Below are positions 8,652 through 58,067 of a stretch of 58,067 nt of DNA, piece by piece (the stretch's first letter is position 1; the number at the start of each line of letters is the position of its first letter). Position numbers and translations under genes: made by a program. The notes below the pieces were generated by a model that was not told where the DNA came from, ran no database searches, and saw nothing but the letters and a program-made list of their open reading frames with translations. The stretch is from Oscillospiraceae bacterium (GTDB taxonomy: Bacteria; Bacillota; Clostridia; Oscillospirales; Ruminococcaceae): positions 1-58,067 of the forward strand of contig JAAVIC010000032.1 of assembly GCA_014799385.1 (NCBI GenBank). The letters run 5' to 3'.

Positions 8652-8672
8652 TTTTAAGATAAGGAGCAAGAT

Positions 8673-36584: not shown

Positions 36585-36588
36585 CATC

Positions 36589-37329: not shown

Positions 37330-37786
37330 TTCGATTAAATTTGAAATATCTATACCAACAGACGTTGACGGTTTCGTGCTAATGCAATGCGAATATTGCG
37401 GAGATTATTTCAAATGCAAACCATCAGATGTCAAGGATGATGAAGTACTTTTTATTCATTGTCCAAGTTGTGGTTTAGTAAGTGAAGATTATTTGACAGA
37501 TGACATACGCGAGCTTGCGATGACAATGGCTGAAAACTATGCAAGTGAGTACTTGAATAATGAATTGAAAAAGCTTGAAAGAAGATTTTCTTCAAACAAG
37601 TTTTTTAAAATAAAAGTAGAAAATAAGTCTAAACCGAAATATGAAAGTCCAATTTATTCAAGTATTGACGCATTGGAAGAAAAGAGTTTCGTATGCTGTG
37701 AACGCAGCGCAAAGATTAAGTCGATATTAAAGATGTCGGCTTGTTATTGTCCGTTTTGTGGAGGGATTACTTTTGAAGATGAATAG
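37322..37786 (+). CDS. Zinc-ribbon protein of unknown function
   Basis: A 154-aa protein with three Cys pairs: CEYCG (near 23), CPSCG (near 47) and a terminal CPFCG (near 145), plus CC near 120. The first two pairs probably form one zinc ribbon. A charged helix (ELKKLERRFSSNKF) links the ends. ATG 37322 overlaps the DUF4391 stop. The gene is noticeably AT-richer than its neighbours. It ends inside the next gene's start region, so the operon is tightly packed. Function is unknown; an accessory or nucleic-acid-binding role is possible. Confidence 0.7.
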   Translation: MNDSIKFEISIPTDVDGFVLMQCEYCGDYFKCKPSDVKDDEVLFIHCPSCGLVSEDYLTDDIRELAMTMAENYASEYLNNELKKLERRFSSNKFFKIKVENKSKPKYESPIYSSIDALEEKSFVCCERSAKIKSILKMSACYCPFCGGITFEDE

Positions 37787-38594
37787 AAAAGAATTGAAGA
37801 AAACCATAAGTGATTTTAACACCATATCCACTAGGCTGCTACAATCCGATTATGATGAATATATTGGTGTATTAAAAAGGTTTCTTAATTTTATAGAATC
37901 AACAGAAATTGTTAATGATTTTATACAAGATTGTGGTGGGTATTGCGCTGACATAGAAGAAAGCTTCAATGAAGTTTGTCAAAGCTTTGAGCCCACACGC
38001 TTTAATTTCAGCATTGGCACGGAAGAAGAAACCTCGGAAATTTACTCTTTGGTGAAACTTCTATGTGAGAATAACTTTCAGCATCCGCCACTGGAATTAT
38101 TAACTGCGTATTCGTATGCCAAAAAGTACAACGATATGGTTAAAGACTTTAACCATAAGGTGATTTTTGTGCTTGTAGGTCATATTGAGAATTATTTAAA
38201 GAAAGTAGGTATCGACATGGGATTAGACAGTAACATAACGTACAACATAAACGGCAATCAGGTAAACGTTGCCAACGATAATGCAACGATCAACGCTACT
38301 CAGAACAACGGAATTGACGCCGCTGAGCTGAAAAAGCTTTTTGATTCAATGCGCAACAGCCTCTCCGAGGAGCTTTCCGAAGAGGATAAAAAAGACGCTG
38401 AAGAGTGCATTGATATTATTGAGCAAGAATTGCAGTCGAACAATCCAAACGAAGAAACGGTTAAAACACGTTTTAAGCTTCTGAAAAGGATTGACTGTAG
38501 CGTAAAGTTTTTAAGCGCATGTGCTTCTGTTGCGACATTCGCAAACAGATTCTATCCCTTTTTAGATCAAATCGCCTTGATGTTCCAAGGCTAA
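37779..38594 (+). CDS. 271-aa protein with Asn-rich linker and helical C-terminal domain
   Basis: The N-terminal part (about 1-145) is helical and acidic, without recognisable motifs. A linker rich in Asn, Gly and Thr (NITYNINGNQVNVANDNATI, near 150-170) leads to a C-terminal helical domain (about 180-271). Proteins with this kind of Asn-rich hinge plus helical tail occur as candidate effectors in phage-defence loci (AbiTii-like), but I cannot place it firmly. Start ATG 37779; a TTG at 37773 has better spacing to GGAGGG and is an alternative. The AT-rich N-terminal half and host-like C-terminal half suggest domain exchange. Confidence 0.68.
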   Translation: MNRKELKKTISDFNTISTRLLQSDYDEYIGVLKRFLNFIESTEIVNDFIQDCGGYCADIEESFNEVCQSFEPTRFNFSIGTEEETSEIYSLVKLLCENNFQHPPLELLTAYSYAKKYNDMVKDFNHKVIFVLVGHIENYLKKVGIDMGLDSNITYNINGNQVNVANDNATINATQNNGIDAAELKKLFDSMRNSLSEELSEEDKKDAEECIDIIEQELQSNNPNEETVKTRFKLLKRIDCSVKFLSACASVATFANRFYPFLDQIALMFQG

Positions 38595-43918: not shown

Positions 43919-44015
43919 GTTCTAACAAAATATAAAAATATTGAAAAGTAAGTTTGATTCGCATGAATAATTTTAAGTTTTTTGATATAAAATATAACGT
44001 ATTTTTAAAAATGCA

Positions 44016-44044
44016 TTGACAAATCGAATTATATGTTGTATAAT
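44016..44044 (+). promoter_or_regulatory. Promoter of the AAA ATPase/TOPRIM operon
   Basis: TTGACA-17-TATAAT, 40 bp before the ATPase start. Confidence 0.85.
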
Positions 44045-44084
44045 ACATTATATAATTATATAACCACAGTTGGAGGGCGTTGAT

Positions 44085-45404
44085 ATGTTCACTTATGTAA
44101 AATTGAAGAACTTTAAGTCGTTTGGCAATATTTGCTTTGATTTTAAGAAAACTCAAAAGGAAACAAAAAAGTTTATTGCTATCTATGGCGAAAACGGCAG
44201 CGGTAAGTCGAATTTCGTATCGGTTTTCGAATTTATGTACTATTCGTTTAACTCGATAAAGCTCAATGATGTCTATAATTTGATTACAGTCAATGCAAAA
44301 GAACTGTCTATTAAAGTTCCGCAAATGCCAATGAATTCTATTCTAAATCAAATTTCCATGAAACTGAACGATTACCGCATGATCGGGTGTTCGGAACCAA
44401 CAACAGTCGAGTTGGGATTTGAGATTGATGGAATTGAGGGATATTATAGCGTTAAGTTTACTGATATCATTCTATCTGAAGAACTTTATTATCTTTGCGG
44501 CAAAAAGCGCGGGAAAATTTTTTCATTAAACTCTGATGATAAAAAAGTCAGCAGCGGATCATTCTCTTCCGATTATATGGAGGACTTTGAAAAAGCACTG
44601 GATAAGTATTGGGGCAAACACACTTTATTTGCCATATTATGTCGTGAAATGAATGAAAAAAATCCGCATTATATTGAAAGCAATGTTTCAAAAGCATTAC
44701 TTGATGTATATTATTCACTAAACAAAACTTTTGTATCATATACAAAATATGATCTTCATGTGCCGTTAAGCGGATCTGGTGTGGAAAGCTATTCGTATGA
44801 CGGAATCCTTCCGATAAAAGACGAAAAGCTGCTTGACACGAACGAGAAAATCCTCAATGAATTGCTGGTGCAGCTTTATCCCGATATCAAGTGCGTATAT
44901 TATGAGAAGAAAATCAAGAATGACAAAATCGAGTATTCGCTTCATGCAAAAAAGGTAATTGCTAACGCAATAAGGGATATTCCTTTTGATTATGAATCCA
45001 CGGGTACAAGAGGATTGTTGAGAGTTTTAAGCGCCGCTGTTGCTGTTATGAATGGCGAAACTGTGATTTACGATGAAATAGATAGCGGAATTCACGATCT
45101 TCTTATGAAAACGCTGATTACTTCTTTGGCTAAAGCAGCTTCCGGTCAACTTATCATAACTACTCACAACACTTTATTGCTTGAATCAATTGATTCACAA
45201 TCTGCGTATGTCATTTATATGGATTGCGATGGAAACAAAGAGGCTAGGTGCATTGCCGATTATGGCGATCGCGTCCAAAAAAACAATAATATGCGTAACC
45301 TTTATCTTAAGGGAATGTATGGTGGAATTCCATATACATCCGAAATCGACTTTTCTTATATTTTAAATACTATTGAAAGGGCAGGTGATGGCAATGCCGA
45401 ATAA
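44085..45404 (+). CDS. AAA15/AAA21-type SMC-like ATPase (RloA/AbiL/OLD-like)
   Basis: A 439-aa ABC/SMC-like ATPase that opens with FTYVKLKNFKSFGNI, the family signature. Walker A is YGENGSGKS (about 35-43), the signature-like region precedes ESTGTRGLLRVL (about 305-316), and Walker B is TVIYDEIDSG (about 326-335), with the His switch in ITTHNTLLLES. Such ATPases pair with TOPRIM-type nucleases in OLD, PARIS and Rlo/AbiL systems. ATG 44085 has GGAGGG upstream. The 3' end overlaps the next gene by 11 bases. It is a probable sensor/activator subunit of a phage-defence pair. Confidence 0.88.
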   Translation: MFTYVKLKNFKSFGNICFDFKKTQKETKKFIAIYGENGSGKSNFVSVFEFMYYSFNSIKLNDVYNLITVNAKELSIKVPQMPMNSILNQISMKLNDYRMIGCSEPTTVELGFEIDGIEGYYSVKFTDIILSEELYYLCGKKRGKIFSLNSDDKKVSSGSFSSDYMEDFEKALDKYWGKHTLFAILCREMNEKNPHYIESNVSKALLDVYYSLNKTFVSYTKYDLHVPLSGSGVESYSYDGILPIKDEKLLDTNEKILNELLVQLYPDIKCVYYEKKIKNDKIEYSLHAKKVIANAIRDIPFDYESTGTRGLLRVLSAAVAVMNGETVIYDEIDSGIHDLLMKTLITSLAKAASGQLIITTHNTLLLESIDSQSAYVIYMDCDGNKEARCIADYGDRVQKNNNMRNLYLKGMYGGIPYTSEIDFSYILNTIERAGDGNAE

Positions 45405-45999
45405 ATTTCAAGCAAATTATTGCCGCGCACTTGTCATTGCCCACGGAGCGTCTGAATATCAGATAGCTTCGTACATAAAACGAAATCTGCGTATTCCAAT
45501 GGAGATAAAAGCAAGAGATAGCGGAAGGCATAGTATACAAATAAATGGTTTGGCTGCCTACTTGAAAAAACTTTATCCAAATCAGAACGCACTTTTGGAT
45601 GATGTCAATGCAAATCAGAAGAATAAGAAGCTTGTTGATTTTGCCGTGTTTACGATTATGGATACTGACGATTGCGATCCGCCATCGCTATGCCAAAAAT
45701 ACAAGGACAGAACCATTTTTGACGGGCTTTGGATTCAGCCGTATATCTATCCTATATACAACACACCATCCTTAGAGCATATTCTTTACAATGCTAATAT
45801 CATTGATAAGATGCTTTCCGATGATGAAAAAATGCGTGTTTATCGAAAAATATTCCCGTTGGATAAAAACAATCCCATTCAAAAAGGGATCACAGAAATG
45901 GAAGCATTTCGTGACGAGATCAGAAATGTCAATAATACAAACTTAGATGAATTTGTTGACTACTGTATCAGATGGGCTGCTTCAAATCGTGTTAACTAA
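45394..45999 (+). CDS. TOPRIM/RloB-like partner of the ATPase
   Basis: A 201-aa protein with a TOPRIM-like plan: hydrophobic strand plus acidic loop LVIAHGASE (about 14-22, cf. hGxSE) and a later DTDDCD motif (about 90) after VFTIMD. Size and partner match RloB/AbiL-like proteins. It would be the nuclease or effector. The start ATG 45394 is favoured over ATG 45388 by spacing to AGGTG. Overlap with the ATPase gene implies coupled translation. The exact family (RloB or the DUF4435 of PARIS) cannot be settled by eye. Confidence 0.75.
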   Translation: MPNKFQANYCRALVIAHGASEYQIASYIKRNLRIPMEIKARDSGRHSIQINGLAAYLKKLYPNQNALLDDVNANQKNKKLVDFAVFTIMDTDDCDPPSLCQKYKDRTIFDGLWIQPYIYPIYNTPSLEHILYNANIIDKMLSDDEKMRVYRKIFPLDKNNPIQKGITEMEAFRDEIRNVNNTNLDEFVDYCIRWAASNRVN

Positions 46000-46012
46000 G
46001 GAGAACTTACTT

Positions 46013-46363
46013 ATGGATGAATTTATAAATAATCCTTTAAATTTGACAATGGAAACGTCCGTGCAATATGCAATTTTGATTTTAATAGGTGTGATTGCTT
46101 TTTTAATTGCATGGATTACCGTAGGAAAAATGTATGATCATAGAATTATTTCCGGCAAGGCAACAGGCTCTTTAGCCCATTGGACAATTCGCATTGCTGC
46201 ATTTTTCTTGATATGTATAGTTTTTCGATCAGCAGTTATTGCTTTTCAGTTTGTGATGTCTAATTGGCAAGCAATTTTGATAATATGTGGCTGTATTTTT
46301 GGAACAGCTTCAATATGCTACATTGTTGTTTCAATCTTAAGAAAAAACAAAGAAGCAAAGTGA
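46013..46363 (+). CDS. Small membrane protein in the ATPase/TOPRIM operon
   Basis: A 116-aa protein with three hydrophobic segments (about 20-38, 59-78 and 83-107) and a short basic tail (RKNKEAK). ATG 46013 has AAGGAG at good spacing, 13 bases after the TOPRIM gene. I do not recognise it. Its place in the operon raises the possibility of a membrane effector or immunity component, or simply a passenger gene. Confidence 0.65.
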   Translation: MDEFINNPLNLTMETSVQYAILILIGVIAFLIAWITVGKMYDHRIISGKATGSLAHWTIRIAAFFLICIVFRSAVIAFQFVMSNWQAILIICGCIFGTASICYIVVSILRKNKEAK

Positions 46364-46370
46364 AAGTGAA

Positions 46371-46397
46371 GAGCCGACCTCACAATGAGATCGGCTC
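46371..46397. terminator. Hairpin between convergent genes at the right end of the element
   Basis: GAGCCGACCTC-acaat-GAGATCGGCTC, one mismatch, located between the convergent membrane-protein gene and the DUF6809 gene. T-tracts are weak on both strands. Confidence 0.6.
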
Positions 46398-46403
46398 CCG
46401 TTA

Positions 46404-46667
46404 TTAAAGTTCTTTTAGCATCTCAAGCATAAGCTGCGCTCCAACTCGAACACCTACCGAGAACTCGTGAAAACGTCCAAGTTCGCTCTGTTCCATTTGT
46501 GCGTTCTCGTATTCTTCCATAATTTGCGCTAAGTCGGGGAATTGTTTAAGAATGTTTGCTCTGCACTCGCTCACCTTATCGCCCGCTCGGTAATATTCAG
46601 GGCAGTTCATATCTACCTCGTCAAAAGGTACTTGACTTCCGAAAAATAATCCTTCCAAAATGCTCAT
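46404..46667 (-). CDS. DUF6809-like small protein
   Basis: An 87-aa acidic helical protein (SILEGLFFGSQVPFDEVDMN through GVRVGAQLMLEMLKEL) resembling DUF6809, found widely in mobile islands of gut Clostridia. Start ATG 46667 follows GGAGGAAATATCA. It is the last gene before attR and reads inward. The function is unknown. Confidence 0.75.
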   Translation of the reverse strand: MSILEGLFFGSQVPFDEVDMNCPEYYRAGDKVSECRANILKQFPDLAQIMEEYENAQMEQSELGRFHEFSVGVRVGAQLMLEMLKEL

Positions 46668-46712
46668 TGATATTTCCTCCAAAAATCAAAATTTGTACAG
46701 GGATATATCAAA

Positions 46713-46737
46713 TTTTGTCCGCTATTTGTCCGCTATT
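46713..46737. other. Probable integrase arm-type site, right end
   Basis: TTTTGTCCGCTATTTGTCCG and the following CTATT match the left-end site at 28194-28219 in the same orientation, with one difference. Confidence 0.6.
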
Positions 46738-46852
46738 GGTACGAAAAATTACTGAAAGTTACGAAAATACCCTTACCGATAAGGTGCGAAATTTGCCTTA
46801 GGTATGCGGAATTTTCGAGGTAGCAAAAAGTTAGAAAAAGTGCTCCGAGATT

Positions 46853-46875
46853 TTCAAGTCCCGTCACTCGCACCA
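46853..46875 (+). other. attR, right attachment repeat
   Basis: A 23-bp copy of the tRNA-Leu 3' end (TTCAAGTCC through CGCACCA), identical to 28107-28129 but not part of a full tRNA. Confidence 0.88.
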
Positions 46876-46883
46876 TACCGAAC

Positions 46884-46922
46884 AAAGGAGAACCACCTAG
46901 ATGGCTCTCCTTTATTTATTTT
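46884..46922 (+). terminator. Terminator outside attR, probably the original tRNA-Leu terminator
   Basis: AAAGGAGA..CC pairs with GG..TCTCCTTT, followed by a long T/A-rich tail (TTTATTTATTTTTT). It lies 9 bases past the att site, the position expected for the native tRNA terminator before insertion. Confidence 0.75.
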
Positions 46923-46988
46923 TTATCCCGGAAAAGCTGTGTTTGGTGTGGTTGTTCCGAGGGTATAAGTGGTGAGCCAATAACACAT

Positions 46989-47030
46989 AATCCGAACACA
47001 TTCGTTACTTGTGATGTGTTCGGATTTATT
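46989..47030. terminator. Hairpin between attR and the methyltransferase module
   Basis: A perfect 13-bp stem AATCCGAACACAT / ATGTGTTCGGATT with 12-nt loop and trailing TATTGTTTATT. Confidence 0.65.
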
Positions 47031-47120
47031 GTTTATTACTATTTGTAATGAGGCGCAGACTATTGCCATATTGTAATTAAATTTATTCTTTTAAATCTTG
47101 TTCAAAATGTCAAAAAATAC

Positions 47121-47149
47121 TTGTAAATTTGTAAAAAATGTGATATAAT
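47121..47149 (+). promoter_or_regulatory. Promoter of the methyltransferase/ATPase module
   Basis: TTGTAA-17-TATAAT, about 40 bp before the first gene. No further promoter is evident until 53.2 kb. Confidence 0.75.
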
Positions 47150-47187
47150 ATATAGTAGAGAAATTATTTATAAATTTTGGTGAAAAT

Positions 47188-47919
47188 ATGGATATAAACA
47201 GCCTTAGGGTTAAATTTAACGAATTGACTTTAGAATCAGAAAGTCATTGGGATTATCAAGGTAAAGGTAGAAGTGAACGTGATTATGTTCATGGTGTCTG
47301 CACTTATCCTGCAATGATGGTTCCCAAAATGCAACGCGAAATACTTGAAGTTTGCCTTTCTCAAATTGATGAAAATGAGAGAATCTGTTTACTTGATCCG
47401 TTTGCCGGATCAGGAACCATATTGGTTGAGGGAATGTTGAAAGGTGTTGATATTGTTGGCGTTGATATAAATCCTCTCGCCATTCTGCTATGTAAAGCAA
47501 AAACAACAATTATTCTTCCTGAAATTTTAATAGATTGTTCTAAACAACTGAAGTCTAGAATAAATAAAATAAGATCAAAAAGGTTAAAAGATTTCCATTT
47601 TGATGGAATTGACAAATGGTTTACAAATGCTGCAATAAAGGATTTAACCATACTACGCAAGTCGATAATTGAAGAACCTCTGGTTGAAATAAGACGTTTC
47701 TTTTGGGCAGCTTTTTGTGAAGTTGTTAGAATTGTCTCTAATTCTAGGGATTGCACCTATAAATTACATATAAAAACTCAAGAAGATATAAACAATTATA
47801 ATAAAGATGCCATAGAAATATTTGTTCAAACATTAGATTATAATATTTCTAAATATTTGTCGTTCTACTCCAACTTAAAAGACAATGGAAGATTAAAAAA
47901 GGGGGGGGAGGTCATATAA
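47188..47919 (+). CDS. DNA methyltransferase, N-terminal part (frame broken at a G8 tract)
   Basis: This frame encodes 243 residues containing the SAM-binding motif LLDPFAGSGT (about 69-78) and the acidic second-strand motif VGVDINPLA. It then runs through A6G8 (47895-47908) and stops at once. The following sequence continues the protein in another frame, where the catalytic TSPPYGDN motif lies. With seven instead of eight G, the two parts join as ...RLKKGG-RSYKG... into a protein of about 458 aa. The SAM motif preceding SPPY indicates an amino-methyltransferase (N6-adenine or N4-cytosine). The truncated form lacks the catalytic motif and should be inactive. It is the first gene of a four-gene, AT-rich module. 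Confidence 0.85.
   Translation: MDINSLRVKFNELTLESESHWDYQGKGRSERDYVHGVCTYPAMMVPKMQREILEVCLSQIDENERICLLDPFAGSGTILVEGMLKGVDIVGVDINPLAILLCKAKTTIILPEILIDCSKQLKSRINKIRSKRLKDFHFDGIDKWFTNAAIKDLTILRKSIIEEPLVEIRRFFWAAFCEVVRIVSNSRDCTYKLHIKTQEDINNYNKDAIEIFVQTLDYNISKYLSFYSNLKDNGRLKKGGEVI
47901..47908 (+). repeat. Poly-G tract (G8) inside the methyltransferase gene
   Basis: Eight consecutive G after six A. The reading frame is open on both sides in different phases, and a change to G7 restores one continuous frame. Confidence 0.85.
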
Positions 47920-48052
47920 AGGATTCATTGAAATAAGATTATCTAATTCAATTGAATATCTTAAACACACAAGAAGAAAGTTCAACCTGGTTCTTACCTC
48001 GCCTCCTTATGGAGATAACCATACCACGGTTTCGTATGGTCAATATTCAATT

Positions 48053-48565
48053 ATGCCTCTACGGTGGATACAATGGACGGACATTGACGACGCAGTAAAT
48101 GCCGAGGTTCTTAAAACGCTATCTGGAATTGATAAGATATCTTTAGGCGGAAGGTCATCAAATGACTTTTTGAACGATAAACACATGGATGTTTTGAACC
48201 ACTCAGCAAAGCTGAATAATCAATATAATCAAATTGCTGCAATTGATACTGAAAAGGTTCAAAAATTGGTTGCTTTTTATAGCGAATATGATGAACTCCT
48301 ATCAGCGATATCAAAAAGATTGAGAGGCAAAACCGTTTCTGTTTGGACATTAGGAAATAGAAAAATTGCCAAGCAAGAGATTTGTATGAATGAAATTATG
48401 GAAGAACTATGCCATAACCATAATATGACACTTCTGACTAGTTTTACAAGAAAAATTTCAAATAAAAGGATGCCTGAACTAAATTCATACACGGGAAAAG
48501 AAAAATCTCAACAGTCTACTATGACAAGAGAACATATCTTGGTTTTTGTTAAGGAGGATACCTAA
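48053..48565 (+). CDS. DNA methyltransferase, C-terminal part
   Basis: The continuation of the methyltransferase after the poly-G frameshift. The frame is open without stops from about 47900; the first ATG in it is 48053, but the catalytic motif (LVLTSPPYGDNHTTVSYG) lies before that ATG at about 47990-48040. The fragment alone (170 aa from the ATG) would not be an enzyme. The C-terminal half contains KRLRGKTVSVWTLGNRKIAKQE and ends in TREHILVFVKED, typical of SPPY methyltransferases. It ends one base before the next gene's start. Confidence 0.75.
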   Translation: MPLRWIQWTDIDDAVNAEVLKTLSGIDKISLGGRSSNDFLNDKHMDVLNHSAKLNNQYNQIAAIDTEKVQKLVAFYSEYDELLSAISKRLRGKTVSVWTLGNRKIAKQEICMNEIMEELCHNHNMTLLTSFTRKISNKRMPELNSYTGKEKSQQSTMTREHILVFVKEDT

Positions 48566-48566
48566 G

Positions 48567-49082
48567 ATGAATAATCAAATTTCGTTGTTTGACAATGATT
48601 CAGAATTTTATGAATCTGATATGTCAAGTTTTAATAAAACGGCTGCAAATTTTCGCGTACATGCCTCTTTAATATATAAGTTGGGAGAATCTCTTATTGC
48701 AGACGAAGTGACAGCGCTTTCAGAGTTAATCAAAAAAGCTTATGATGCCGATGCTACGTTCTGCTCGTTATTAATAGATACATCTTATCAAGAAACGGCT
48801 GGAGAAGATGTTTTTTACGGGAAAATAGAATTAGTTGATAATGGCTGTGGTATGGATTTACCGACAATTGTTAATGGTTGGTTAACAATATCCAATTCAC
48901 CAAAAAAGAAAATGAAAAAAGAGAAGAAAACTACAAATAAATTTCATCGCTACCCTTTGGGCGACAAGGGGTTAGGGCGTCTTTCTGTGCAAAAACTTGG
49001 AAAGTACATGCAGCTTATAACAAAGAACTCTCAATCAAATATTGAGTATAGTGTAAATATCCCTTGGGGGGGATTTTCTTAA
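48567..49082 (+). CDS. Hsp90/MORC-like GHKL ATPase domain (N-terminal part of a split gene)
   Basis: 172 residues up to a stop just after a G7 tract. ATG 48567 has AAGGAGG upstream. All ATP-binding boxes of a GHKL (HATPase_c_3) fold are present: ELIKKAYDADA (N-box, about 52-62), LVDNGCGMD (about 90-98) and GDKGLGRLS (about 130-138, with the preceding lid). Removing one G from the tract joins SVNIPWG to DFLKNTTIDQ and yields a continuous protein of about 840 aa with the downstream frame. MORC/MutL-like ATPases have been reported in bacterial restriction loci, fitting the adjacent methyltransferase. Confidence 0.85.
   Translation: MNNQISLFDNDSEFYESDMSSFNKTAANFRVHASLIYKLGESLIADEVTALSELIKKAYDADATFCSLLIDTSYQETAGEDVFYGKIELVDNGCGMDLPTIVNGWLTISNSPKKKMKKEKKTTNKFHRYPLGDKGLGRLSVQKLGKYMQLITKNSQSNIEYSVNIPWGGFS
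49066..49072 (+). repeat. Poly-G tract (G7) inside the ATPase/kinase gene
   Basis: Seven G. The downstream frame is open for over 2 kb in the phase obtained by deleting one G. A further G7 run lies in frame at 49807-49813 in the same gene. Confidence 0.85.
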
Positions 49083-49335
49083 AAATACAACTATTGATCA
49101 AATTTCTATATCTATAAATGAAAACAAAATAGATAATGATAAATCATATACTAAAATCATTATTAAAGATTTAGTTGATAATGAACTGTGGAATAGTAGT
49201 GAGCAAGTTAATATTTTAAGTAATACTATAAATAAAATTGTCTCTCCATTTAGAAGTAAGGAAAACAATTTTAAAGTTATTGCAAGTGTTAATGGTAAAC
49301 CCATTGAGACAGTTGAAACAATTTTTAATGAGATT

Positions 49336-51090
49336 TTGTCCAGAGCTATAGCTAAACATGTTATCGCTTATGCCGATGGTAAGAGTACAATTCATTCGCT
49401 TTATACTCCGTCATTTCTTTATAATAGAGAGATGATGGGCGAGATGGGAAATAAAAGATTTTCTTTGAACAAATCTGCACTAACTGATTTTTGGAATATA
49501 TTTAACACAAAATTATCTGGATTTAGTTATGATTCTGAAGAGAAATATCCATTTAAATCTGATGATTTCTACATTTTTGAAGAACTGACACATACAGGGG
49601 ATTTGTCTGAAAACACAGATCCCGGAGAATTTGAATGTGAAATTTATGAATATACTTTAGATCCGATTTTTATAGAAAATTATTATCAAAATATTAGTTT
49701 TTCGGCTTCGATAAATCAAAAGGAATACAGAGAATTTGTTAACAGATTTCATGGAATAAAGGTAGTTCGTGATGGCTTTGTTGTACAAGGCCTTGGCGAA
49801 GGAGATGGGGGGGATTGGCTCGGCTTGGCATCTTCATCAAAAACCAAGGGAAGATATAATGACCTCAGAAATGATAGTGTTATTGGGTGTGTTTATCTTA
49901 CTGGCAAAAATAATTATGTGTTAAAAGAAACCACCAATCGTGAGGGCTTTGTTGAAGATGGGTTCTATTTGTCTTTTAGAAAAATTTTAAGTGAATCAAT
50001 TAAAAGAATTAACAAGAACAGAGACAGATTTAATTCATCTATGCGATCATATTTAAGAGGATCAATTAGTACCACTGCTGATACGAATAAAAACGCATTG
50101 GTATTTCAACCTGTGATTGACGAAATAAAGGGCAAGCTAGAAGAATCACAATCTGGGGTCGCAGAAAAATCACAGGCTATAGCAGACACTTTAAGCAATT
50201 TCGTTTCTATAAAGAGCGACTTGTCTAATAATCCCTTTGTATCTAAAGAAACTGTTGCAACATTTGAAAATACATATAGTAATATTCAAAAGCTTGCGGA
50301 TAACTATAGGCAGATGGATGAAGCACAGCAGTATTTGGCAAAAATGATTGATGAGATTTCATTTGAGTATGAAAAATTAACTGATAAATTGCGAGATCTG
50401 TTTGAACTTGCAGGATTGGGTTTGTCAGTAGAAATGTTTGCGCACGAATTTGACTCTTCAATAAGAAATATAAGATCAAATAATGATAAACTATTAACCT
50501 CTGATTCTCACTCAATTGAAGCACTTGTTCGTCAGATACATTATGTTAATGTGTCATTAGATACATTGAGGAAACAGATGTCATATTTTAACCCGGGTTT
50601 AAAGTTTGTGCGATCAAAGAAACAAACAATCTCATTCTTGAAATTCATTCAAGATCACCAATCGTTTTATTCCGAACGTTGCAAAGCAAAGAAAACTGAA
50701 TATATTATTGATATCAAATCTGATTTCGAGATAACCGTTAATAGGGGAATGATAAATCAAGTGTTTGATAATCTGTTTAACAACTCTGAGTATTGGTTAA
50801 ATTTCTCTGAAGAACATGATTTGATAGATATTAAAACGTTTACCGTTCAAAGTGTCGAAAAAGGGATCGTGATCGTATTTGATAATGGCATTGGAGTTAG
50901 TGAAGATATTGAAAATCGCCTTTTCGAACCGTTTGAAACTAAGAAAGAAAACGGCAGAGGGTTAGGTTTATATATTGTTGCTAATAATCTTATGTATCAT
51001 TCTGCCCGAGTTCGTTTGTTGGGAGAAAGAAATTCCCATGGTAAATTGTTCAAATTTGAATTGGATCTTTCAGCCATAATGGCTGACTGA
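49336..51090 (+). CDS. Histidine-kinase-like C-terminal part of the split ATPase gene
   Basis: A continuous frame from 49072 (first ATG 49336). In the restored 840-aa protein, about 170-500 is the rest of the MORC-like module. A coiled coil follows (about 510-610), then a DHp-like helix with a candidate phospho-His at about 626 (MFAHEFDSSIRNI). The histidine kinase ATPase domain (about 715-835) has the N-box QVFDNLFNNSEYW, DNGIGV, LFEPFETKKENGRGLGLYIV. The architecture is thus two GHKL ATPase domains in one chain. The receiver-like protein encoded 17 bases downstream is the natural phosphotransfer partner. Confidence 0.85.
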   Translation: MSRAIAKHVIAYADGKSTIHSLYTPSFLYNREMMGEMGNKRFSLNKSALTDFWNIFNTKLSGFSYDSEEKYPFKSDDFYIFEELTHTGDLSENTDPGEFECEIYEYTLDPIFIENYYQNISFSASINQKEYREFVNRFHGIKVVRDGFVVQGLGEGDGGDWLGLASSSKTKGRYNDLRNDSVIGCVYLTGKNNYVLKETTNREGFVEDGFYLSFRKILSESIKRINKNRDRFNSSMRSYLRGSISTTADTNKNALVFQPVIDEIKGKLEESQSGVAEKSQAIADTLSNFVSIKSDLSNNPFVSKETVATFENTYSNIQKLADNYRQMDEAQQYLAKMIDEISFEYEKLTDKLRDLFELAGLGLSVEMFAHEFDSSIRNIRSNNDKLLTSDSHSIEALVRQIHYVNVSLDTLRKQMSYFNPGLKFVRSKKQTISFLKFIQDHQSFYSERCKAKKTEYIIDIKSDFEITVNRGMINQVFDNLFNNSEYWLNFSEEHDLIDIKTFTVQSVEKGIVIVFDNGIGVSEDIENRLFEPFETKKENGRGLGLYIVANNLMYHSARVRLLGERNSHGKLFKFELDLSAIMAD

Positions 51091-51107
51091 TTATGAAAGG
51101 ATGTAAA

Positions 51108-52685
51108 ATGATGACTGCTGTTAACACAATGATAGATAAAGCTTTAATTGACATTTTTCGTCTTGAAAATATCAAGTATGTAATAAGTGTCGATGATTGT
51201 TTTTCCACCGACTATGCTGATAAATTACGGCAGGAGTTAATCATTGATTTTTCAATGTCGACTGATAAAGTTATGGAATTCCTCCGTCGATTGGGTAAAG
51301 ATATCAATAATATAAGCCAAATTATTGAGTTTGGAGGAGATGTTCAAAACGAAATACAAGAATTAATTAATGGCTTGAGTGACATTGAGGTTCAGAAATA
51401 TGTTGATTTTGCTCCGGAGAGTAAGTCTAACTTAAATATGAAGAGCGATAAGGAGGAAATTCTTTATTTTTTGGATATGTTAAAAGAAGATGGGATTATT
51501 GATGGATACAGGACGTTTCAAAGCACACATGAAGCAGAAAAGTTTTATTCCGAGGGCATAGAAATAACTAGTGGTTCTATTCTATGGCTTATTGATAAAA
51601 ACTTTGAAAATGTAGGTGAATCATCTGAAGCTGGATTGGAATTTGCTAAAAATAGAATTAGTGAAAGTGATGATAAAAATTTCTTTTTCTTTCTTACAAA
51701 AATTGGGAATGATTCAGATAGCGAAAAAGATATTGATAAGGAATTTGATGACCTTTTAGTTCAGATGAGCTATGAAACACCTTCACTAGTTTATTATATC
51801 GCAAAAGACAAGTTGCTTGCAAAAAGATATGACAAAGTCGCCCAAAGTTTGGCAAACGGTTTTAACAGAAAATTATATTTTAAAATCATAGAGCAATATT
51901 GTGAGTGCTTATTTTGCAGTTGTAAAAATTCAATTCCTAAGTTGCATGAAATTAGAAGAGCTGCGTTAAGTTATATTTTCTTTAAAAAGGTTGATTATAG
52001 GGGTGAATCGTATTTTGATTTTTTTGCAAGGCTAGTTCAGATTTTCCACAATGACGAATACAGCAAATTTATAGCCAATAAAAGATTGCAAATTTCTAAG
52101 CAAATTAAACATTTTGAAGAGCTTGTAAAAATTATTCAAAGCGGAGGCTCTGTTAAAGAGTTTGCGGAAGACTTGATTGCAATAAGAGAAAGGGAGTTAT
52201 TTGACACTCAAATAAATAAAAAGCATTGTGAAATTTCTAGTGGAGATATTTTTAGAATAGGAGATGATTATTATATTCTAGCGACACAGTCTTGTGATAC
52301 ATTTTTACGAACAGAGGGTGAACGAAGACTAAAGTCTTGCGCTACTTTACTTAAAATAGCAGACAATAATAACGAGGATTTTAGATATGAATTGTCTTGT
52401 TTTAATGATGAGGAAGTTAGATTGAATAAACCCTCAATTATATATCGCGATTACATTTTTATACTATTTGAGATTTTAGATCTGTGCGTGGCTAATGAAC
52501 ATGGAATTGCTTGTATTAAGTTGCAAGATCTAACGTCTGATTCTAATTTGGATATTGGTTTTACTACTAATTACAAGAAAAGGTATGATAAAGTTAAAGA
52601 AGAATTGTGCTTTGTACATACTAACCTGCAAATTATTCAATCTTTTTTTATACTGACGGATCTGGATATGAGATTGAGAAAGTGA
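51108..52685 (+). CDS. Receiver-like response protein with unknown C-terminal domain
   Basis: A 525-aa cytoplasmic protein. The start at ATG 51108 follows AAAGGATG. The N-terminal part looks like an expanded response-regulator receiver: an acidic pair after the first strand (IKYVISVDDCFS, about 20-32), a candidate phospho-Asp in SILWLIDKNFE (about 160-170), and a strand FFFFLTKIG with the Lys expected in receivers. The 120-residue insert between them is unusual. The C-terminal half (about 230-525) includes GDIFRIGDDYYILATQSCDTFLR and is unrecognised; it may be the effector. It follows the kinase gene closely and is coupled to the 71-aa gene by a 4-base overlap. Confidence 0.78.
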   Translation: MMTAVNTMIDKALIDIFRLENIKYVISVDDCFSTDYADKLRQELIIDFSMSTDKVMEFLRRLGKDINNISQIIEFGGDVQNEIQELINGLSDIEVQKYVDFAPESKSNLNMKSDKEEILYFLDMLKEDGIIDGYRTFQSTHEAEKFYSEGIEITSGSILWLIDKNFENVGESSEAGLEFAKNRISESDDKNFFFFLTKIGNDSDSEKDIDKEFDDLLVQMSYETPSLVYYIAKDKLLAKRYDKVAQSLANGFNRKLYFKIIEQYCECLFCSCKNSIPKLHEIRRAALSYIFFKKVDYRGESYFDFFARLVQIFHNDEYSKFIANKRLQISKQIKHFEELVKIIQSGGSVKEFAEDLIAIRERELFDTQINKKHCEISSGDIFRIGDDYYILATQSCDTFLRTEGERRLKSCATLLKIADNNNEDFRYELSCFNDEEVRLNKPSIIYRDYIFILFEILDLCVANEHGIACIKLQDLTSDSNLDIGFTTNYKKRYDKVKEELCFVHTNLQIIQSFFILTDLDMRLRK

Positions 52686-52897
52686 GAAATGCGTATGAGA
52701 ATTTAAGTTTAATTGAAACCGCATTGAAAAATTACAGGACAGATGATGAAATGATGATATACGATGTTCGACGTATCTCTCGATTAAACGAGTTAGAAAC
52801 AATATCAATGCTCAATGGTTATAGTGTCGCGTTGTCAAGGGTGGGTAAGCCGTTTGATTATATGGAAGATGATTCCACCAAAAAGCAAAAAAAGTAG
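52682..52897 (+). CDS. 71-aa protein ending the module
   Basis: A GTG start within GTGA overlaps the stop of the preceding gene, indicating translational coupling. The product is soluble and helical, with a basic tail (STKKQKK); I do not recognise it. It reads as part of the module, perhaps a regulator or accessory subunit. A terminator follows at 52931. Confidence 0.65.
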   Translation: MRNAYENLSLIETALKNYRTDDEMMIYDVRRISRLNELETISMLNGYSVALSRVGKPFDYMEDDSTKKQKK

Positions 52898-52930
52898 AAC
52901 TAGATTTTCTGTTATAGAATTTAGCATCAT

Positions 52931-52958
52931 AGAGGACAGTTAGAACAGACTGTCCTCT
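52931..52958 (+). terminator. Terminator of the methyltransferase/ATPase module
   Basis: AGAGGACAGT pairs perfectly with ACTGTCCTCT, followed by TAT. The stretch to 53179 beyond it is AT-rich with nothing I can identify. Confidence 0.8.
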
Positions 52959-53179
52959 TATAGATTATGTATGCGCCATAGAGATATTGTTTGCAAGAGT
53001 AATTTTAACATCATTGAAGGTATCTGTTAAGATTTTGATACTATCTCTAAATCATTTGTAGAAAGAATATATGTTTGCTTAAAAAGTCAATGCGAATAAA
53101 TCTGAAATAATTAACAGCAACTAAGTCATTTGTTTTCATTTATTTTTCGCCTAAAGTTTATCCAATCAACATAAACCCT

Positions 53180-53209
53180 AACCAAAATCTAATAAAGCTA
53201 TGATATAAT
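53180..53209 (+). promoter_or_regulatory. Regulator promoter with 18-bp box
   Basis: The box AACCAAAATCTAATAAAG (53180-53197) ends 6 bp before TATAAT (53204-53209), replacing a normal -35. The same box and spacing occur before the first permease at 55327-55356, differing at two positions. Confidence 0.65.
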
Positions 53210-53228
53210 CTAATGGGGGTGATATATC

Positions 53229-53897
53229 ATGGCAAAGAAAATTCTGATAATTGAAGACGATGAAGCAATTCAAAAGATACTGACCGAACCCCTCACCGCA
53301 GAGGGGCATGAAGTCGCTACGGCGTCCGACGGTGCCGAGGGTATAACGAAATTTCAAAAACAGGAGTACGACCTGATCCTGTTAGATTTGATGCTGCCAA
53401 AAATTGATGGATATACCGTATGCGAAATGATACGGCGGGAATCACAAATTCCGATAATTATTTTAACCGCGCTTGATTCGGAAGATGCTCAAATTAAAGG
53501 GTTTGACAAATTGGCAGATGATTACATCACAAAACCGTTTTCCATAAAGCTTGTTTTAAAGCGCGTCGAAGCTCTTTTACGGCGCACATCATCGGACGTG
53601 CTGTCCGACACAATTCGTTACAAGGAGATTGTTTTAAGCGAATCCGAGCGAAAAGTTACCGTTTCCGGAAACGAGGTAGCACTTACCCACTTGGAGTTTG
53701 AAATACTCTTGCTGTTCCTTAAAAACAGGGGTCGTGTTTTTACAAGGGACGATCTTCTGAATCTTGTTTGGGGCTATGATTTTATTGGAGATGAAAAGGG
53801 CGTAAACTTCCATATCATGAACCTGCGCAGGAAATTAAATGTTGATTATATTGAAACGGTCAGAGGGGTGGGATATAGGATTGCTAAGCAAAATTAA
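53229..53897 (+). CDS. OmpR/PhoB-family response regulator (VncR-like)
   Basis: A 222-aa DNA-binding regulator. The receiver domain (1-118) has DD at IIEDDEA, phospho-Asp at about 53 in LILLDLMLPKIDG, Thr in ILTALD and Lys in YITKPF. The winged-helix output (about 128-220) shows LTHLEFEILLLFLKNRGRVF and GVGYRI. GGGGGTG lies upstream of the ATG. It forms an operon with the sensor kinase, whose start lies within its 3' end. The shared 18-bp box suggests it controls itself and the adjacent permeases, as two-component/ABC permease systems for peptides or antimicrobials do. Confidence 0.93.
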   Translation: MAKKILIIEDDEAIQKILTEPLTAEGHEVATASDGAEGITKFQKQEYDLILLDLMLPKIDGYTVCEMIRRESQIPIIILTALDSEDAQIKGFDKLADDYITKPFSIKLVLKRVEALLRRTSSDVLSDTIRYKEIVLSESERKVTVSGNEVALTHLEFEILLLFLKNRGRVFTRDDLLNLVWGYDFIGDEKGVNFHIMNLRRKLNVDYIETVRGVGYRIAKQN

Positions 53898-55250
53898 GAA
53901 CAGCCTGACCGCAAAAGTATTTCTGTTGGTTTTCACCGCGCTTGGTGTTTGCTGTACGCTGATATATTGTATATTGATCGCGGTTCTCCCTAAGCAGTAT
54001 CAATTCACACAAGACAAACAGTTAAATGCAAACGCGGAGATTTTTATTACGGAGCTTAAAAATTTACAATATGAAGATGGAATCAAAGCTATATATGATT
54101 TCTGTATCCAAAACAGCTCGGCTGTCGTTCTGGTTAATGAAAATCAAACCTTGACATTCGGAAAGATAAATTCTGACGAACAATCCATAGCTACATCAAG
54201 TGTTACAGCTAATATTAGTTTTTTAAACAGCGATTCTGACTATACTATCGTGATTTCTTCGGCTATGCACGCGGTGGATAAGATTTTAAGGCTGCTTTTA
54301 AGTCTTTTGCCAGCGGTTTTTCTGATAATAATTCTTCTATCGGTTCTGAGTGCGTTTGTTTGCAGTAAAATAATAGTCTCACCGATAGCGAAAATCAGCC
54401 AAATATCCAAGCGTATGGCGTCTTTGGATATGACATGGAGATGCGATTATGCTAGCCAAGACGAGATTGGTGTTTTGGTATCAAATCTGAATACTATGGC
54501 ATTAAATCTTCAAAATTCAATGCGGGAACTGACACTTGCCAATGAGCAGCTTGCTGTTGATGTCAAGAAACTTCAAGCCTTGGATGAACAGCGCGGATAT
54601 TTTTTTGCGGCGGCATCTCACGAGCTTAAAACGCCTCTGACTATATTAAAGGGACAAATTGAAAATATGATTTTGGGATACGGCGATTATCAAAATCACG
54701 AAAAATATTTGCCGGAAGCGCTTAAAGCTACGGAAGATATTGAACGCCTTGTCAAGGAGATAATTACAATATCCAAAATGGAAAGTATGGACTTAAAAGA
54801 TACCTTGCAGGACGTTTCGATAAAGCAGACGGTCAATGATATTGTACAAATTATTTTGCCGCTTGCACAGGGTAAGCAAATTCAGATACATCAAAATATC
54901 GCTGCGATAAGTTTATATCCGTCAATCCTAACCTTTGGAATAAAGCACTATCCAACATTATCGGTAATGCCGTTCGACATTCTCCGTGCGGCGAAAATGT
55001 TTTTATTTCTTTGCAGTCTTGCGAAAACAGAAACGTGCTTGTTATCAAAAATACCGGAGTTTCCATTCCGGAAGATGACCTTTCCGAGATATTCACGCCA
55101 TTTTTTCGGGTCGACAAATCTAGGAATAAGGCTACCGGCGGAAGCGGTTTGGGATTGTACATCGTCAAAACTATTCTTGATCTGCACGGTATGATCTATT
55201 GTATAAAAAATACGGAAAACGGATTAGCCTTTTCCATTTATCTGAATTGA
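53881..55250 (+). pseudogene. Sensor histidine kinase, frameshifted (VncS-like)
   Basis: Partner of the upstream regulator. TTG 53881 lies inside the regulator gene, with AGGGGTGGG ahead. Two transmembrane segments (about 12-35 and 128-158) flank a small extracytoplasmic domain; then come HAMP and the DHp helix with phospho-His about 247 in AASHELKTPLTIL. Near 54915-54925 the frame shifts: the first frame runs on to 55194 as nonsense, while the true ATPase domain (LWNKALSNIIGNAVRHSP, VIKNTGVSI, FTPFF, GGSGLGLYIV) continues in another frame to 55250. One missing base explains it. No homopolymer is involved, so it is either a real mutation or a sequencing error; the broken form would lack kinase activity. 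Confidence 0.85.
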
Positions 55251-55265
55251 ATAAGTTTCTCCATA

Positions 55266-55298
55266 AAAGCTGTCGGTAATTTTGCCGGCAGCTTTTTT
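55266..55298 (+). terminator. Terminator of the two-component operon
   Basis: AAAGCTGTCGG (55266-55276) pairs with CCGGCAGCTTT (55285-55295) with one G-T pair, followed by TTTT. Confidence 0.85.
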
Positions 55299-55326
55299 AT
55301 ATCTAATCAAAATCATATAAAAAGCA

Positions 55327-55356
55327 AATCAAAAACTAATAAAGCGGCGGTATACT
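55327..55356 (+). promoter_or_regulatory. Permease promoter with the 18-bp box
   Basis: AATCAAAAACTAATAAAG (55327-55344) lies 6 bp before TATACT (55351-55356). It shares the box of the regulator promoter at 53180-53209. Confidence 0.65.
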
Positions 55357-55382
55357 GTTTTAGAAGGGAGTTGAGACTGCGA

Positions 55383-56720
55383 ATGAACCTTTTAAAACGA
55401 GCCGTTCTTTATTCTGTACGCAAAAAAGGAAAAACTCTGACATTATTTTTATTGATTGGGCTTGTTTCGACTTTTTTGCTCTCCTGCTTTTCAATTTTGA
55501 GCGCGGTGGAAATTTTAAATGCGAATATCCGAAAATCGATAGGCGCGGCATTTTACATAAGAGCAAATTCCAATGTTGTTCAAAACGATAAGGGTGAATT
55601 TTCTATTGAGGACAAGCGGATTCGCATTACCGACGATAATATATCCGAGATTGAGAAATGCGGTGAAGTAGCTTATTGCAACCCTATTAATTATGGTTAT
55701 GCGAAAAGTGAGGATATTAAATTTATTCCCGGTGATCGGGACGAGCCCGACAATAATATGGGTCAGATAACCGCGCTGCGCTATTCATTTTTACACTCGG
55801 ATTTTTCGGACAAGGGCGTTTCCCTTAGTGACGGAAAACATATTGATAAAACGAGTGAAAAATCGATAATTATCAGCCGCGAGCTTGCTCTGGCAAACGG
55901 TATTTCTTTAGGTGATAAGGTAATTCTTAAATCCGCAAAATTCGGAACCGGCGACGGAAAATACACCGATATTTGGGGGGACGGTCGTAAAGAAGTTGAG
56001 GTCATTGTAACGGGCATTTACGAAATTCTCAAAGAAAACAATTCCGTTACCGCAACGGCAGCAAAGCAGGAAAACCGTATTTACGCGAGCTTGGACGTCC
56101 TTTCGGAATTAGGTGAATCCGAACCGTCGGTATATACGGGAGAGGTCGATTTTTATGTTATCGATCCTGCCGAATTAACGCAAATCGTTCCAAGAGTGCG
56201 CAAAATCGACAGTATCGATTGGATAACACATTTCATTCGCACAAATGATTTTCAATACTCAAAAATCTCCGAAAGTATGGAATCTTTTAGCGGTTTTGTT
56301 AAGGCTTTGCTGATATGCGTATCGGTTGTGAGCGTTGCTATCATTACCTTGATACTGGCATTAAGTATGCGGAATCGAGTTCGGGAATCGGGGATTTTAC
56401 TTGCGGTCGGCATATCCAAAAAGGAGATATTGACGCAGTTTATCCTTGAAACTTTAATGGCTGCAATTGCGGGTTTTATCACGTCGTATATCGTTTATTA
56501 TGCTGTGCGAGACAGCTTGGCGAATATGTTGTTTGCCGATTATCAGCCGAATTTGATTACCGATGAATCATTGAAAAACGGTATTGAATTTAGTTTGAGC
56601 ATTTGGATAATCATATCGGTGTATCTTTGTCAATTGATCGTAATTGTGCTTTCTGTGGTGATCTCATCAATGACGATCCTTAGGCTCAAGCCAAAAGAGA
56701 TATTGAATAAAATAAGTTAG
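55383..56720 (+). CDS. FtsX-like ABC transporter permease (Vex-like)
   Basis: A 445-aa permease of the MacB/FtsX type: one N-terminal transmembrane helix (about 16-42), a large external domain (about 45-285), then three C-terminal helices (about 292-325, 345-372 and 400-432). SGILLAVGISKKEILTQFILE is the conserved cytoplasmic loop after the second helix. ATG 55383 is used; TTG 55371 sits too close to GGGAG. The next gene begins 11 bases on and is a paralogue, suggesting a heteromeric permease. The ATPase subunit is not in the window. It is likely a peptide or antimicrobial exporter controlled by the adjacent two-component system. Confidence 0.9.
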   Translation: MNLLKRAVLYSVRKKGKTLTLFLLIGLVSTFLLSCFSILSAVEILNANIRKSIGAAFYIRANSNVVQNDKGEFSIEDKRIRITDDNISEIEKCGEVAYCNPINYGYAKSEDIKFIPGDRDEPDNNMGQITALRYSFLHSDFSDKGVSLSDGKHIDKTSEKSIIISRELALANGISLGDKVILKSAKFGTGDGKYTDIWGDGRKEVEVIVTGIYEILKENNSVTATAAKQENRIYASLDVLSELGESEPSVYTGEVDFYVIDPAELTQIVPRVRKIDSIDWITHFIRTNDFQYSKISESMESFSGFVKALLICVSVVSVAIITLILALSMRNRVRESGILLAVGISKKEILTQFILETLMAAIAGFITSYIVYYAVRDSLANMLFADYQPNLITDESLKNGIEFSLSIWIIISVYLCQLIVIVLSVVISSMTILRLKPKEILNKIS

Positions 56721-56731
56721 GAGGGCGAACA

Positions 56732-57967
56732 ATGAGCTTTTTGAAAAGAGCTGTTTTATACAGCTTTAGACAGAAAACCAAGTCATTAATTCTGTTTTTA
56801 ATGCTCACGGTTATATTTTCGCTTTTGTTTAACAGCTTTGCTATTCGCGATGCCTCGGAGGCTGCCGTGTCGGAAATGCGAATGGGAATCGGCGGCAAAC
56901 TGAAATTGGAGATCGACACCGAGGGCAATTTCGGAAATGTACAGGAAAATGATTACGGAACCACTTCTGTTTATATTGGCGACTATGTTACCAAACCCAT
57001 TATTGACGCAGTTTCAAAAATCAAAGGTGTTGTAGATTATAATGTTGAAGATCCCGCCTCGGTATATTACGCCGGAGTGAGTTTTCAATTTATCCCGACA
57101 AGCTGGAATATCAGCACGACAAAATACGGCGCAAATGTTTCGTTTACTTCCTGTCTTTCTTCGGAGAGATGTTCGGCGTTTGAAAGCGGAAAATACACTC
57201 TGGTTGACGAAAGGCATATTAAGCCCGATGATTCTTATGCTTTGCTGATCTCAAAGGAGCTTGCGGATTACAACGGAATAAAAGTCGGCGATATTGTGAA
57301 GGTGTATTCTTCATACTTGGACTTGGAGTGCGAGGGTATGAATCCCATTGTTGAAATGGAGATCGTCGGAATATTTAACGGCACCGAGGGCACCGCGACG
57401 GGAACCGAAATAATTGCCGATCAATTACAGGCAAACTGCGGATATGTTGCATACAATACGCTCTTTAATATGTTTGCCGCCGACTATAAAAACGGTGCGG
57501 AATATCAATCGGTCACCGTGTATGTTGATGATCCTGCCGAGATTCAAAAGGTCTATGATGAAATATCTTCTCTGCCGGAAATTAAAGGCAAAACCCTAAA
57601 GCTAAGCATTGTCAACGAGGAATACCAAGCCGTTGAAACGCCTTTGGATACCCTGGGAAAATCGATAAACGCAGCGATTATAGTCATCACACTAGCAAGT
57701 TTTGCTGTGGTGACGCTGTTTCTCAATTTTTGCATTAAGGGCAGAAAAAACGAGATCGGGATACTGCTTTCGGTCGGGCAAAGCAAACTTAGTATTGTTG
57801 CGCAATTTATGACAGAAACGGCAATGACGCTTGTTGCGGCGTTTTTGGTATCGATTGTTTTGAGCAATTTGACAGTTTCCGGAGTATGCGGGATTTTTAT
57901 TCCGCAGGCGGAAAATGATCATTCAATCTCTGCCGTGAAGGTTCCCAGTCAGACCAACAGCATTTAA
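56732..57967 (+). CDS. Second FtsX-like permease, truncated at the C-terminus
   Basis: A 411-aa paralogue of the first permease with the same start (MSFLKRAVLYS, GGAGGG upstream), one N-terminal helix (about 15-38), an external domain, then helices at about 312-335 and 355-382 with NEIGILLSVGQSKLSIVAQFMTE. It stops shortly after the third helix, without the last loop and helix present in its neighbour. The final residues (about HSISAVKVPSQTNSI) do not resemble this family. The sequence after about 57915 appears foreign, so an insertion or rearrangement probably truncated it. Confidence 0.85.
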   Translation: MSFLKRAVLYSFRQKTKSLILFLMLTVIFSLLFNSFAIRDASEAAVSEMRMGIGGKLKLEIDTEGNFGNVQENDYGTTSVYIGDYVTKPIIDAVSKIKGVVDYNVEDPASVYYAGVSFQFIPTSWNISTTKYGANVSFTSCLSSERCSAFESGKYTLVDERHIKPDDSYALLISKELADYNGIKVGDIVKVYSSYLDLECEGMNPIVEMEIVGIFNGTEGTATGTEIIADQLQANCGYVAYNTLFNMFAADYKNGAEYQSVTVYVDDPAEIQKVYDEISSLPEIKGKTLKLSIVNEEYQAVETPLDTLGKSINAAIIVITLASFAVVTLFLNFCIKGRKNEIGILLSVGQSKLSIVAQFMTETAMTLVAAFLVSIVLSNLTVSGVCGIFIPQAENDHSISAVKVPSQTNSI

Positions 57968-57969
57968 AA

Positions 57970-58067
57970 TTAAGCATAAGAAAGCAAAATATTCAAAAGC
58001 ACGTCCGGATTTAGTGCGGCTTTGAACATCATTTTGCGCTTGCCTAATCGGCCGGTTTTGGCTTTAC
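57970..58067 (-). CDS. Possible 3' end of an unidentified gene (partial)
   Basis: On the minus strand an open frame enters from the window edge and ends at TAA (57970-57972), giving a 31-residue basic tail (KAKTGRLGKRKMMFKAALNP and 11 more). It might be the C-terminus of a transposase or other protein inserted into the permease gene. It is short, so this is tentative. Confidence 0.3.
   Translation of the reverse strand, partial: KAKTGRLGKRKMMFKAALNPDVLLNILLSYA

Follow-up and report, generated by a model that had tools for sequence, protein, structure and literature searches.

We analysed a 58,067-nucleotide window of an Oscillospiraceae bacterium genome (assembly GCA_014799385.1, contig JAAVIC010000032.1, positions 1 to 58,067), in which positions 47188-52897 of the plus strand hold an operon of 32% GC. 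It encodes a DNA methyltransferase, a MORC-like ATPase fused to a histidine kinase, a responder with a divergent, likely receiver domain, and a 71-aa open reading frame (ORF). A sequence-only reading had singled out this stretch as a candidate defence module, and its central claim of a genuine linked set of methyltransferase, ATPase-kinase fusion and receiver-like protein is borne out by Pfam matches and by alignment to intact relatives. Judged by sequence, the operon and its relatives form a coherent new class, in which a methyltransferase is linked to a long kinase and a long responder with invariant receiver Asp and Lys, and the copy in the source genome looks off or broken. A possible sigma-70-type promoter (TTGTAA-17-TATAAT with TG) lies at 47121-47149 on the plus strand, where all operon features described below also lie; this is a weak signal, with five such sites in the stretch against 2.5 expected.

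The methyltransferase starts with an N-terminal piece (47188-47919, motif I DPFAGSGT at 47395), its frame breaks at a G8 tract (47901-47908), and a C-terminal piece continues in another frame (47909-48565, SPPY at 47999; the listed ORF starts at ATG 48053). It is an N4/N6-type DNA enzyme; the N-terminal piece matches UPF0020 above and N6_N4_Mtase below the Pfam cut-off, and PADLOC MTase_II at E 1.6e-48. The two pieces match, one after the other, a single intact 453-aa protein of the relative L042, from a Lachnospiraceae metagenome-assembled genome (63% identity to residues 1-237 and 58% to residues 239-453, respectively), and end to end to a protein in L043, from a Dethiobacter metagenome-assembled genome. 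Intact copies of the kinase and responder genes, as of the methyltransferase gene, are present in relatives.

Similarly, the kinase is divided into an N-terminal piece with a GHKL/Hsp90-like ATPase (48567-49082, ribosome-binding site AAGGAGG just 5'; HATPase_c_3, PF13589, E 1.4e-11; 72% identical to L042) and a C-terminal piece (49073-51090), the frame breaking at a G7 tract (49066-49072). The earlier reading had described two G-tract switches, and both tracts do fall exactly at the frame changes. The C-terminal piece, in a frame free of stops up to 51090, comprises the post-GHKL region, a coiled-coil-like region, HEF_HK (PF19191; 50416-50595, E 2.7e-6, 28.2 bits against a cut-off of 24.1) with its His codon at 50443-50445, and HATPase_c (about 50752-51069, E 6.6e-11); a third G7 tract within it (49807-49813) is in frame. 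Thus, the combination of HATPase_c_3, HEF_HK and HATPase_c is present in the source genome, spread over two pieces. In L042, the relative that was scanned, all three domains are in one protein, with HEF_HK at 20.8, below the cut-off. The profile of the relatives' kinases (class A, defined below) matches solved histidine kinases C-terminally and Hsp90s N-terminally, and the kinase has the predicted DHp phospho-His domain and CA domain of a two-component kinase. A conserved region follows the GHKL module, an S5 domain there being judged by eye only.

To place the operon among its relatives, we examined 81 loci, namely the 79 that correspond to the best 80 of at least 527 confirmed relatives in a contig scan with the GHKL piece, and two plasmid loci, L007 (Hymenobacter) and L008 (Rhizobium). 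Class A comprises 36 loci with a kinase of at least 800 aa and a responder of at least 500 aa, and class B 34 loci with shorter proteins; these limits were set after the lengths had been seen, and 11 loci, cut by contig ends or of odd lengths, belong to neither class. L081, near-identical to L080, was excluded from the alignments, which hold 35 loci plus the source (A3), 33 plus the source (A6) and 33 (A7). Members of class A are spread over Bacillota, Bacteroidota, Actinomycetota, Pseudomonadota, Chloroflexota and further phyla (assigned from record titles), and environmental species such as Niastella populi (L054) and Mariniphaga anaerophila (L074) carry intact sets.

The proposal that methyltransferase, MORC/kinase and receiver protein make up one unit holds across these distant bacteria, 31 of the 36 class A loci having the order methyltransferase-kinase-responder. 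Homologues without a linked methyltransferase, which the sequence-only reading had named as evidence against itself, are nearly absent from class A: a methyltransferase of the same type is present in 35/36 class A loci, directly upstream in 31 (counted by phmmer with the source piece) and elsewhere in four, with that of L044 a piece cut by the locus end and L099 the sole locus without one. Clustering with a 50% length rule gave 31/36 loci, with 27 entries upstream. Moreover, the protein trees of 34 loci correlate strongly (kinase-methyltransferase 0.85, kinase-responder 0.91, methyltransferase-responder 0.82; reached in 0/2000 permutations each). Besides the methyltransferase, no neighbour family occurs in more than 3/36 class A loci (ORFs of at least 70 aa in the flanks, clustered); the responder itself is therefore probably the effector. 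In class B, another methyltransferase family occurs in 21/34 loci, mostly adjoining the kinase-responder pair, its L058 member being a C5 methylase by Pfam, and the class A type in 3/34; a Vsr family, so identified by Pfam in L058, is found in 10 class B loci and one class A locus.

The responder (51093-52685, 530 aa) may also be read as 525 aa from ATG 51108, where the ribosome-binding site looks better by eye. The source protein matches nothing in Pfam, PADLOC or NCBIfam at E 1, and among its relatives only single members give weak matches, to unrelated families, in Pfam, PHROGs and NCBIfam; the sole receiver-type match is cREC_REC (E 0.0097). The evidence for a receiver comes from residues and profiles. 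The acidic pair (Asp34-Asp35, 51192-51197), the acceptor Asp168 (51594) and Lys238 (51804) stand in receiver order, and in L042 numbering the acceptor Asp152, Lys225 and Asp18 are present in 34/34 aligned rows and Asp19 in at least 90%. With hhalign, class A and class B responders compared over their whole length gave 96.7%, and class B receivers gave 96.6% against canonical receivers of the source genome (21 of 25 genome matches taken, 20 left after a motif filter). In class A receivers the first strand is followed by a long insert; with the insert left in they reached 1.4% against the canonical set and 10% against class B, and without the insert columns 72-89% against class B and 25-50% against the canonical set over five cut points, the maxima at the best cut point being 0.8 and 1.8 in 60 column shuffles. 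The responder thus likely contains a receiver domain, and the profile comparison favours the earlier description of the 525-aa protein as receiver-like. Response_reg_2 (PF19192) matches 0/36 class A responders at E 0.01, the source included, only 1/34 class B responders and 0/3 plasmid relatives (L009-L011), and that model is narrow.

In the C-terminal part of class A responders, GD-F, a Cys and an Arg are invariant and Q-x-C-D is mostly retained (GD-F...Q-x-CD motif at 52242-52310 in the source), and most class B responders have a similar CD motif (Cys in 88% and Asp in 79% of rows). Neither Pfam nor NCBIfam gave a match to a DNA-binding family for this part. A PemK/MazF-like barrel was considered and dropped, as the resemblance of one short motif is not evidence: against a profile of 19 PemK sequences from 24 loci, the class A domain core gave 6% against a shuffle maximum of 4.3, and whole C-terminal parts gave 0.9% (class A) and 1.4% (class B).

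The 71-aa ORF (52682-52897) does overlap the responder by GTGA, as had been described, and is not an unrelated fourth protein: it is 46% identical over 63 aa to residues 514-576 of the L042 responder and matches positions 525-591 of the class A responder profile. Since it matches the C-terminus of intact responders, it represents their last, separated segment. We lean slightly towards a naturally separate, translationally coupled gene for this C-terminal module, because a diverged viral-contig relative, L175, has its responder split in the same way, at the same linker, with an ATGA overlap. Set against this, the 33 other class A responders in alignment A6 keep the segment fused, the source and L175 are not closest by identity, which would call for two origins of the split or for its loss, and the frame 5' of the ORF is open and colinear with L042. 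The idea that all three apparent breaks of the operon are of one kind was set aside, since the responder split recurs in L175.

The gene set is rare and probably mobile. The methyltransferase piece is found in 1/297 genomes of the family (E 1e-20) and the responder profile in 1/398 genomes of the phylum and 1/391 of the class (E 1e-6), in each case the source genome only, and HEF_HK occurs in 2/391 genomes of the class. Searched against 295 genomes of the order, the source responder gave three weak matches besides its own. L003, from another family of the order, is a relative: it has a 684-aa responder (910-2964), and the preceding ORF matches the kinase C-terminal region. L004, a weak match, gave none in a later comparison, and the match in L005 has internal stops and lies beside an unrelated ORF. 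As a query, the source responder found nothing in plasmids, phages or viral contigs, and the full gene set is present in 3/79 viral-contig loci and class A also on the two plasmids. Such a sporadic occurrence fits horizontal spread. The viral contig L175 (IMG/VR) carries a close operon relative at 4635-10251, with methyltransferase and kinase intact and the responder split. On the Hymenobacter plasmid, the class A responder (7537-9333) is labelled cytochrome P450, a label that looks wrong.

Apart from the three G tracts of the operon, the 58-kb window has no G or C run of at least 7, and the 2.69 Mb of the genome (33 contigs) contain 31 in all, three of them within 1.9 kb at the operon. The chance of three or more of the 31 is 1.6e-6 for a given 1.9-kb stretch and 4.1e-5 for a given 5.7-kb stretch, or of the order of 0.002 or 0.02 once the roughly 1,400 or 470 stretches of these sizes are taken into account. 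A published survey with PhasomeIt uses poly-G/C runs of at least 7 as its cut-off and states that tracts of at least 8 switch expression in Campylobacter (PMC6321876). The operon has such tracts in open frames with breaks at them; compared with the poly-G genes treated in that paper, its tracts of 7-8 stand at the lower edge, and each is known at a single length, from one genome. The clustering of the tracts fits phase variation.

Recent decay is about as likely as phase variation, because the relatives are without tracts and a catalytic Asn has been lost. In the source kinase, a Lys codon (48735-48737) replaces the Asn of the GHKL N-box, which, like the H-box His, is invariant in 33/33 aligned relatives; the source keeps the H-box His, and the remaining residues examined in the GHKL, H-box and kinase regions are each conserved in 30-33 of these relatives. 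Tracts of at least 7 number 14 in the 881 kb of the 79 loci (the two plasmid loci left out), none within a class A operon when positions were compared by hand, and the L175 operon has none. The matches of the responder and the 71-aa ORF to the profile are separated by 26 bases for 8 model positions, as for a frame break. A recently dead remnant, with two G-run frame-shifts, the N-box change and perhaps a further break within the responder, is thus a serious possibility to which we give somewhat less than even odds. Among the 70 kinase columns conserved in at least 32/33 other relatives, the source copy departs at five, and apart from a missing start residue and three departures common to L042 and L043, only the change at Asn61 is peculiar to it; moreover, decay would not usually leave a cluster of three long G runs in an operon with only 32% GC.

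It could also be argued that the genes are intact and the breaks are sequencing or assembly errors, as both certain ones fall on homopolymers and a neighbouring kinase (53839-55240) is also frame-broken, though not at a homopolymer. We consider this improbable. Long frames (at least 200 codons) read through 9 of the 31 tracts, the third G7 included, and only two tracts are break-like, both in the operon, so the breaks are not a general habit of the assembly; in addition, genome completeness is 99.91% and 25/25 receiver-domain matches in the genome are without an internal stop. Elsewhere among the loci, the Allosphingosinicella contig L117 has a run of 13 G at 11617, on the downstream side of a class A operon, and L094, on a contig titled uncultured Cenarchaeum (an archaeon), holds two relatives of the kinase and, in 12 kb, four G7 tracts.

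Several known systems resemble the operon, and the earlier statement that it matches no named system is not supported by the literature. Bellieny-Rabelo et al. described in 2021, from computational prediction, HEF_HK/Response_reg_2 pairs beside restriction-modification genes and derived the pair from paraMORCs (PMC8011034). Their pairs and our operon share a protein with GHKL (HATPase_c_3), HEF_HK and HATPase_c, a receiver-like protein directly after it and a DNA methyltransferase beside it. In contrast, the responders of the 2021 pairs carry Response_reg_2, which class A responders do not match (a difference to be read with the narrowness of the model in mind), and the methyltransferase usual among them is a C5 enzyme, in many cases accompanied by Vsr (PMC8011034), while that of the operon is N4/N6-type. 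Class B fits that context better; in L058, the single locus scanned for this, Pfam confirmed both the C5 methylase and Vsr. Because the source responder does not match Response_reg_2, we file the operon as a variant beside this family and not inside it. The 2021 paper cites upregulation of three genes of this kind in Pectobacterium on potato, with no function tested in the parts of the paper drawn on here (PMC8011034), and PF19191 is mentioned once in another report (PMC10663231).

In bacteria, MORC-type ATPases next to methyltransferases have been on record since 2008, when Iyer et al. described paraMORC/MORC restriction-modification ATPases (PMC2292703), mostly without a tested mechanism. 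With these ATPases and with BbrUII/HgiDII (NF050001) the operon shares an N-terminal GHKL module beside a methyltransferase; its protein runs into a histidine-kinase core, whereas theirs run into an endonuclease domain, and its NF050001 score in NCBIfam is 59, below the cut-off of 550. VcSduA, a paraMORC3-like Shedu protein, likewise has a GHKL ATPase, shown to be required for phage defence, and provides a precedent; there the ATPase is fused to a PD-(D/E)xK nuclease, and the sections of that report used here describe no kinase core or responder (PMC12137116). The kinases tried match PADLOC type II restriction-enzyme models at their GHKL end, and the middle of the L054 kinase weakly matches LmuB (1.4e-6) and DruC. 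As for a type II restriction-modification system, no nuclease family was found in the responder, and each neighbour family reaches at most 3/36 class A loci, neighbours having been compared by clustering only. Detocs is a further point of comparison, as a phage-defence system in which a kinase relays phosphate to an effector protein. To our knowledge, Detocs has no methyltransferase and its effector differs; no Detocs model is among the PADLOC matches of kinase and responder.

Gene linkage, residue conservation and shared ancestry are directly supported, and from them we infer every functional step of the following proposal. As its family suggests, the methyltransferase would mark the cell's own DNA. 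The GHKL/MORC-like ATPase would act as an ATP-driven DNA sensor, most likely of unmarked or invading DNA; sensing would free the DHp/CA core, the conserved His would be phosphorylated, and the phosphate would pass to the receiver Asp of the responder. Phosphorylation may then switch on the responder C-terminal domain, the strongest effector candidate of the unit. Both the methyltransferase and the kinase of the source genome lose their frame at G tracts, which would leave the unit off, by phase state or by recent decay. We give a probability of about 50% to this reading, that the unit is a horizontally spread, self-contained, restriction-modification-like defence system which is off in the source genome. 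It is tempting to go further and speculate on an epigenetically gated phosphorelay immunity, in which a MORC clamp reads methylation, a His-Asp signal reaches a new effector domain (GD-F...Q-x-CD), and marking and sensing each stand under their own G-tract switch; this fuller version we regard as unlikely, if worth stating.

Several observations weigh against a defence system. No PADLOC model matches the responders tried (source, L042, L084 and L054), and PADLOC covers pieces of the unit, not the unit as a system. Solved structures gave nothing convincing for the responder (best E 0.033), no effector or nuclease family was found for it in Pfam, PHROGs or NCBIfam, and an attack on DNA by the responder is unproven. 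The source kinase has lost its N-box Asn, and our literature search found no functional test or phage-defence record for these proteins. The link to restriction-modification could also be regulatory, as the 2021 authors suggest, proposing a signalling that controls restriction-modification directly or indirectly (PMC8011034). Indeed, the main rival is an epigenetic regulator, whose relay controls the methyltransferase or neighbouring restriction-modification genes and has no part in defence; two-component logic normally ends in regulation, and the absence of a nuclease match in the responder speaks for it as well. Such a regulator would be expected to have targets, and the scarcity of shared neighbours in class A leaves no common target set nearby, nor does the responder C-terminal part match a DNA-binding family. 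We give this rival a probability of about a quarter, and keep to a defence system as the working reading.

The unit is real and well conserved, its general kind is already in print, and its mechanism is testable. Whether a GHKL clamp reports DNA status by phosphotransfer becomes a testable question with this class, which is compact and combines three genes, an invariant His-Asp relay and a single candidate effector. If true, this would join classic signalling with the discrimination of self from non-self DNA, and would indicate a new effector domain; both responder classes have a form of that domain.

Regarding the surroundings, the genes downstream of the operon gave only three short matches in 25 other genomes, with no empty site for comparison. 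The histidine kinase of the downstream two-component pair (53839-55240) has a frame break near 54900, where there is no homopolymer. Upstream lies an integrative element, which extends from a tRNA-Leu (gag) gene (28043-28129) to a 23-bp repeat of its 3' end (46853-46875). We considered the operon as part of this element and rejected the idea, as the repeat ends the element at 46875, before the operon; no further copy of the repeat (at least 14 bp) is present in 44000-58000, other element ends not having been sought. The cargo of the element includes an integrase, a relaxase, a type III restriction-modification set and an AbiLi-like ATPase. Within it, 33396-38594 encodes an SNF2/HKD-type helicase, a DUF4391 protein and the PADLOC candidate pair PDC-M14A/B, before the type III methyltransferase and restriction genes.

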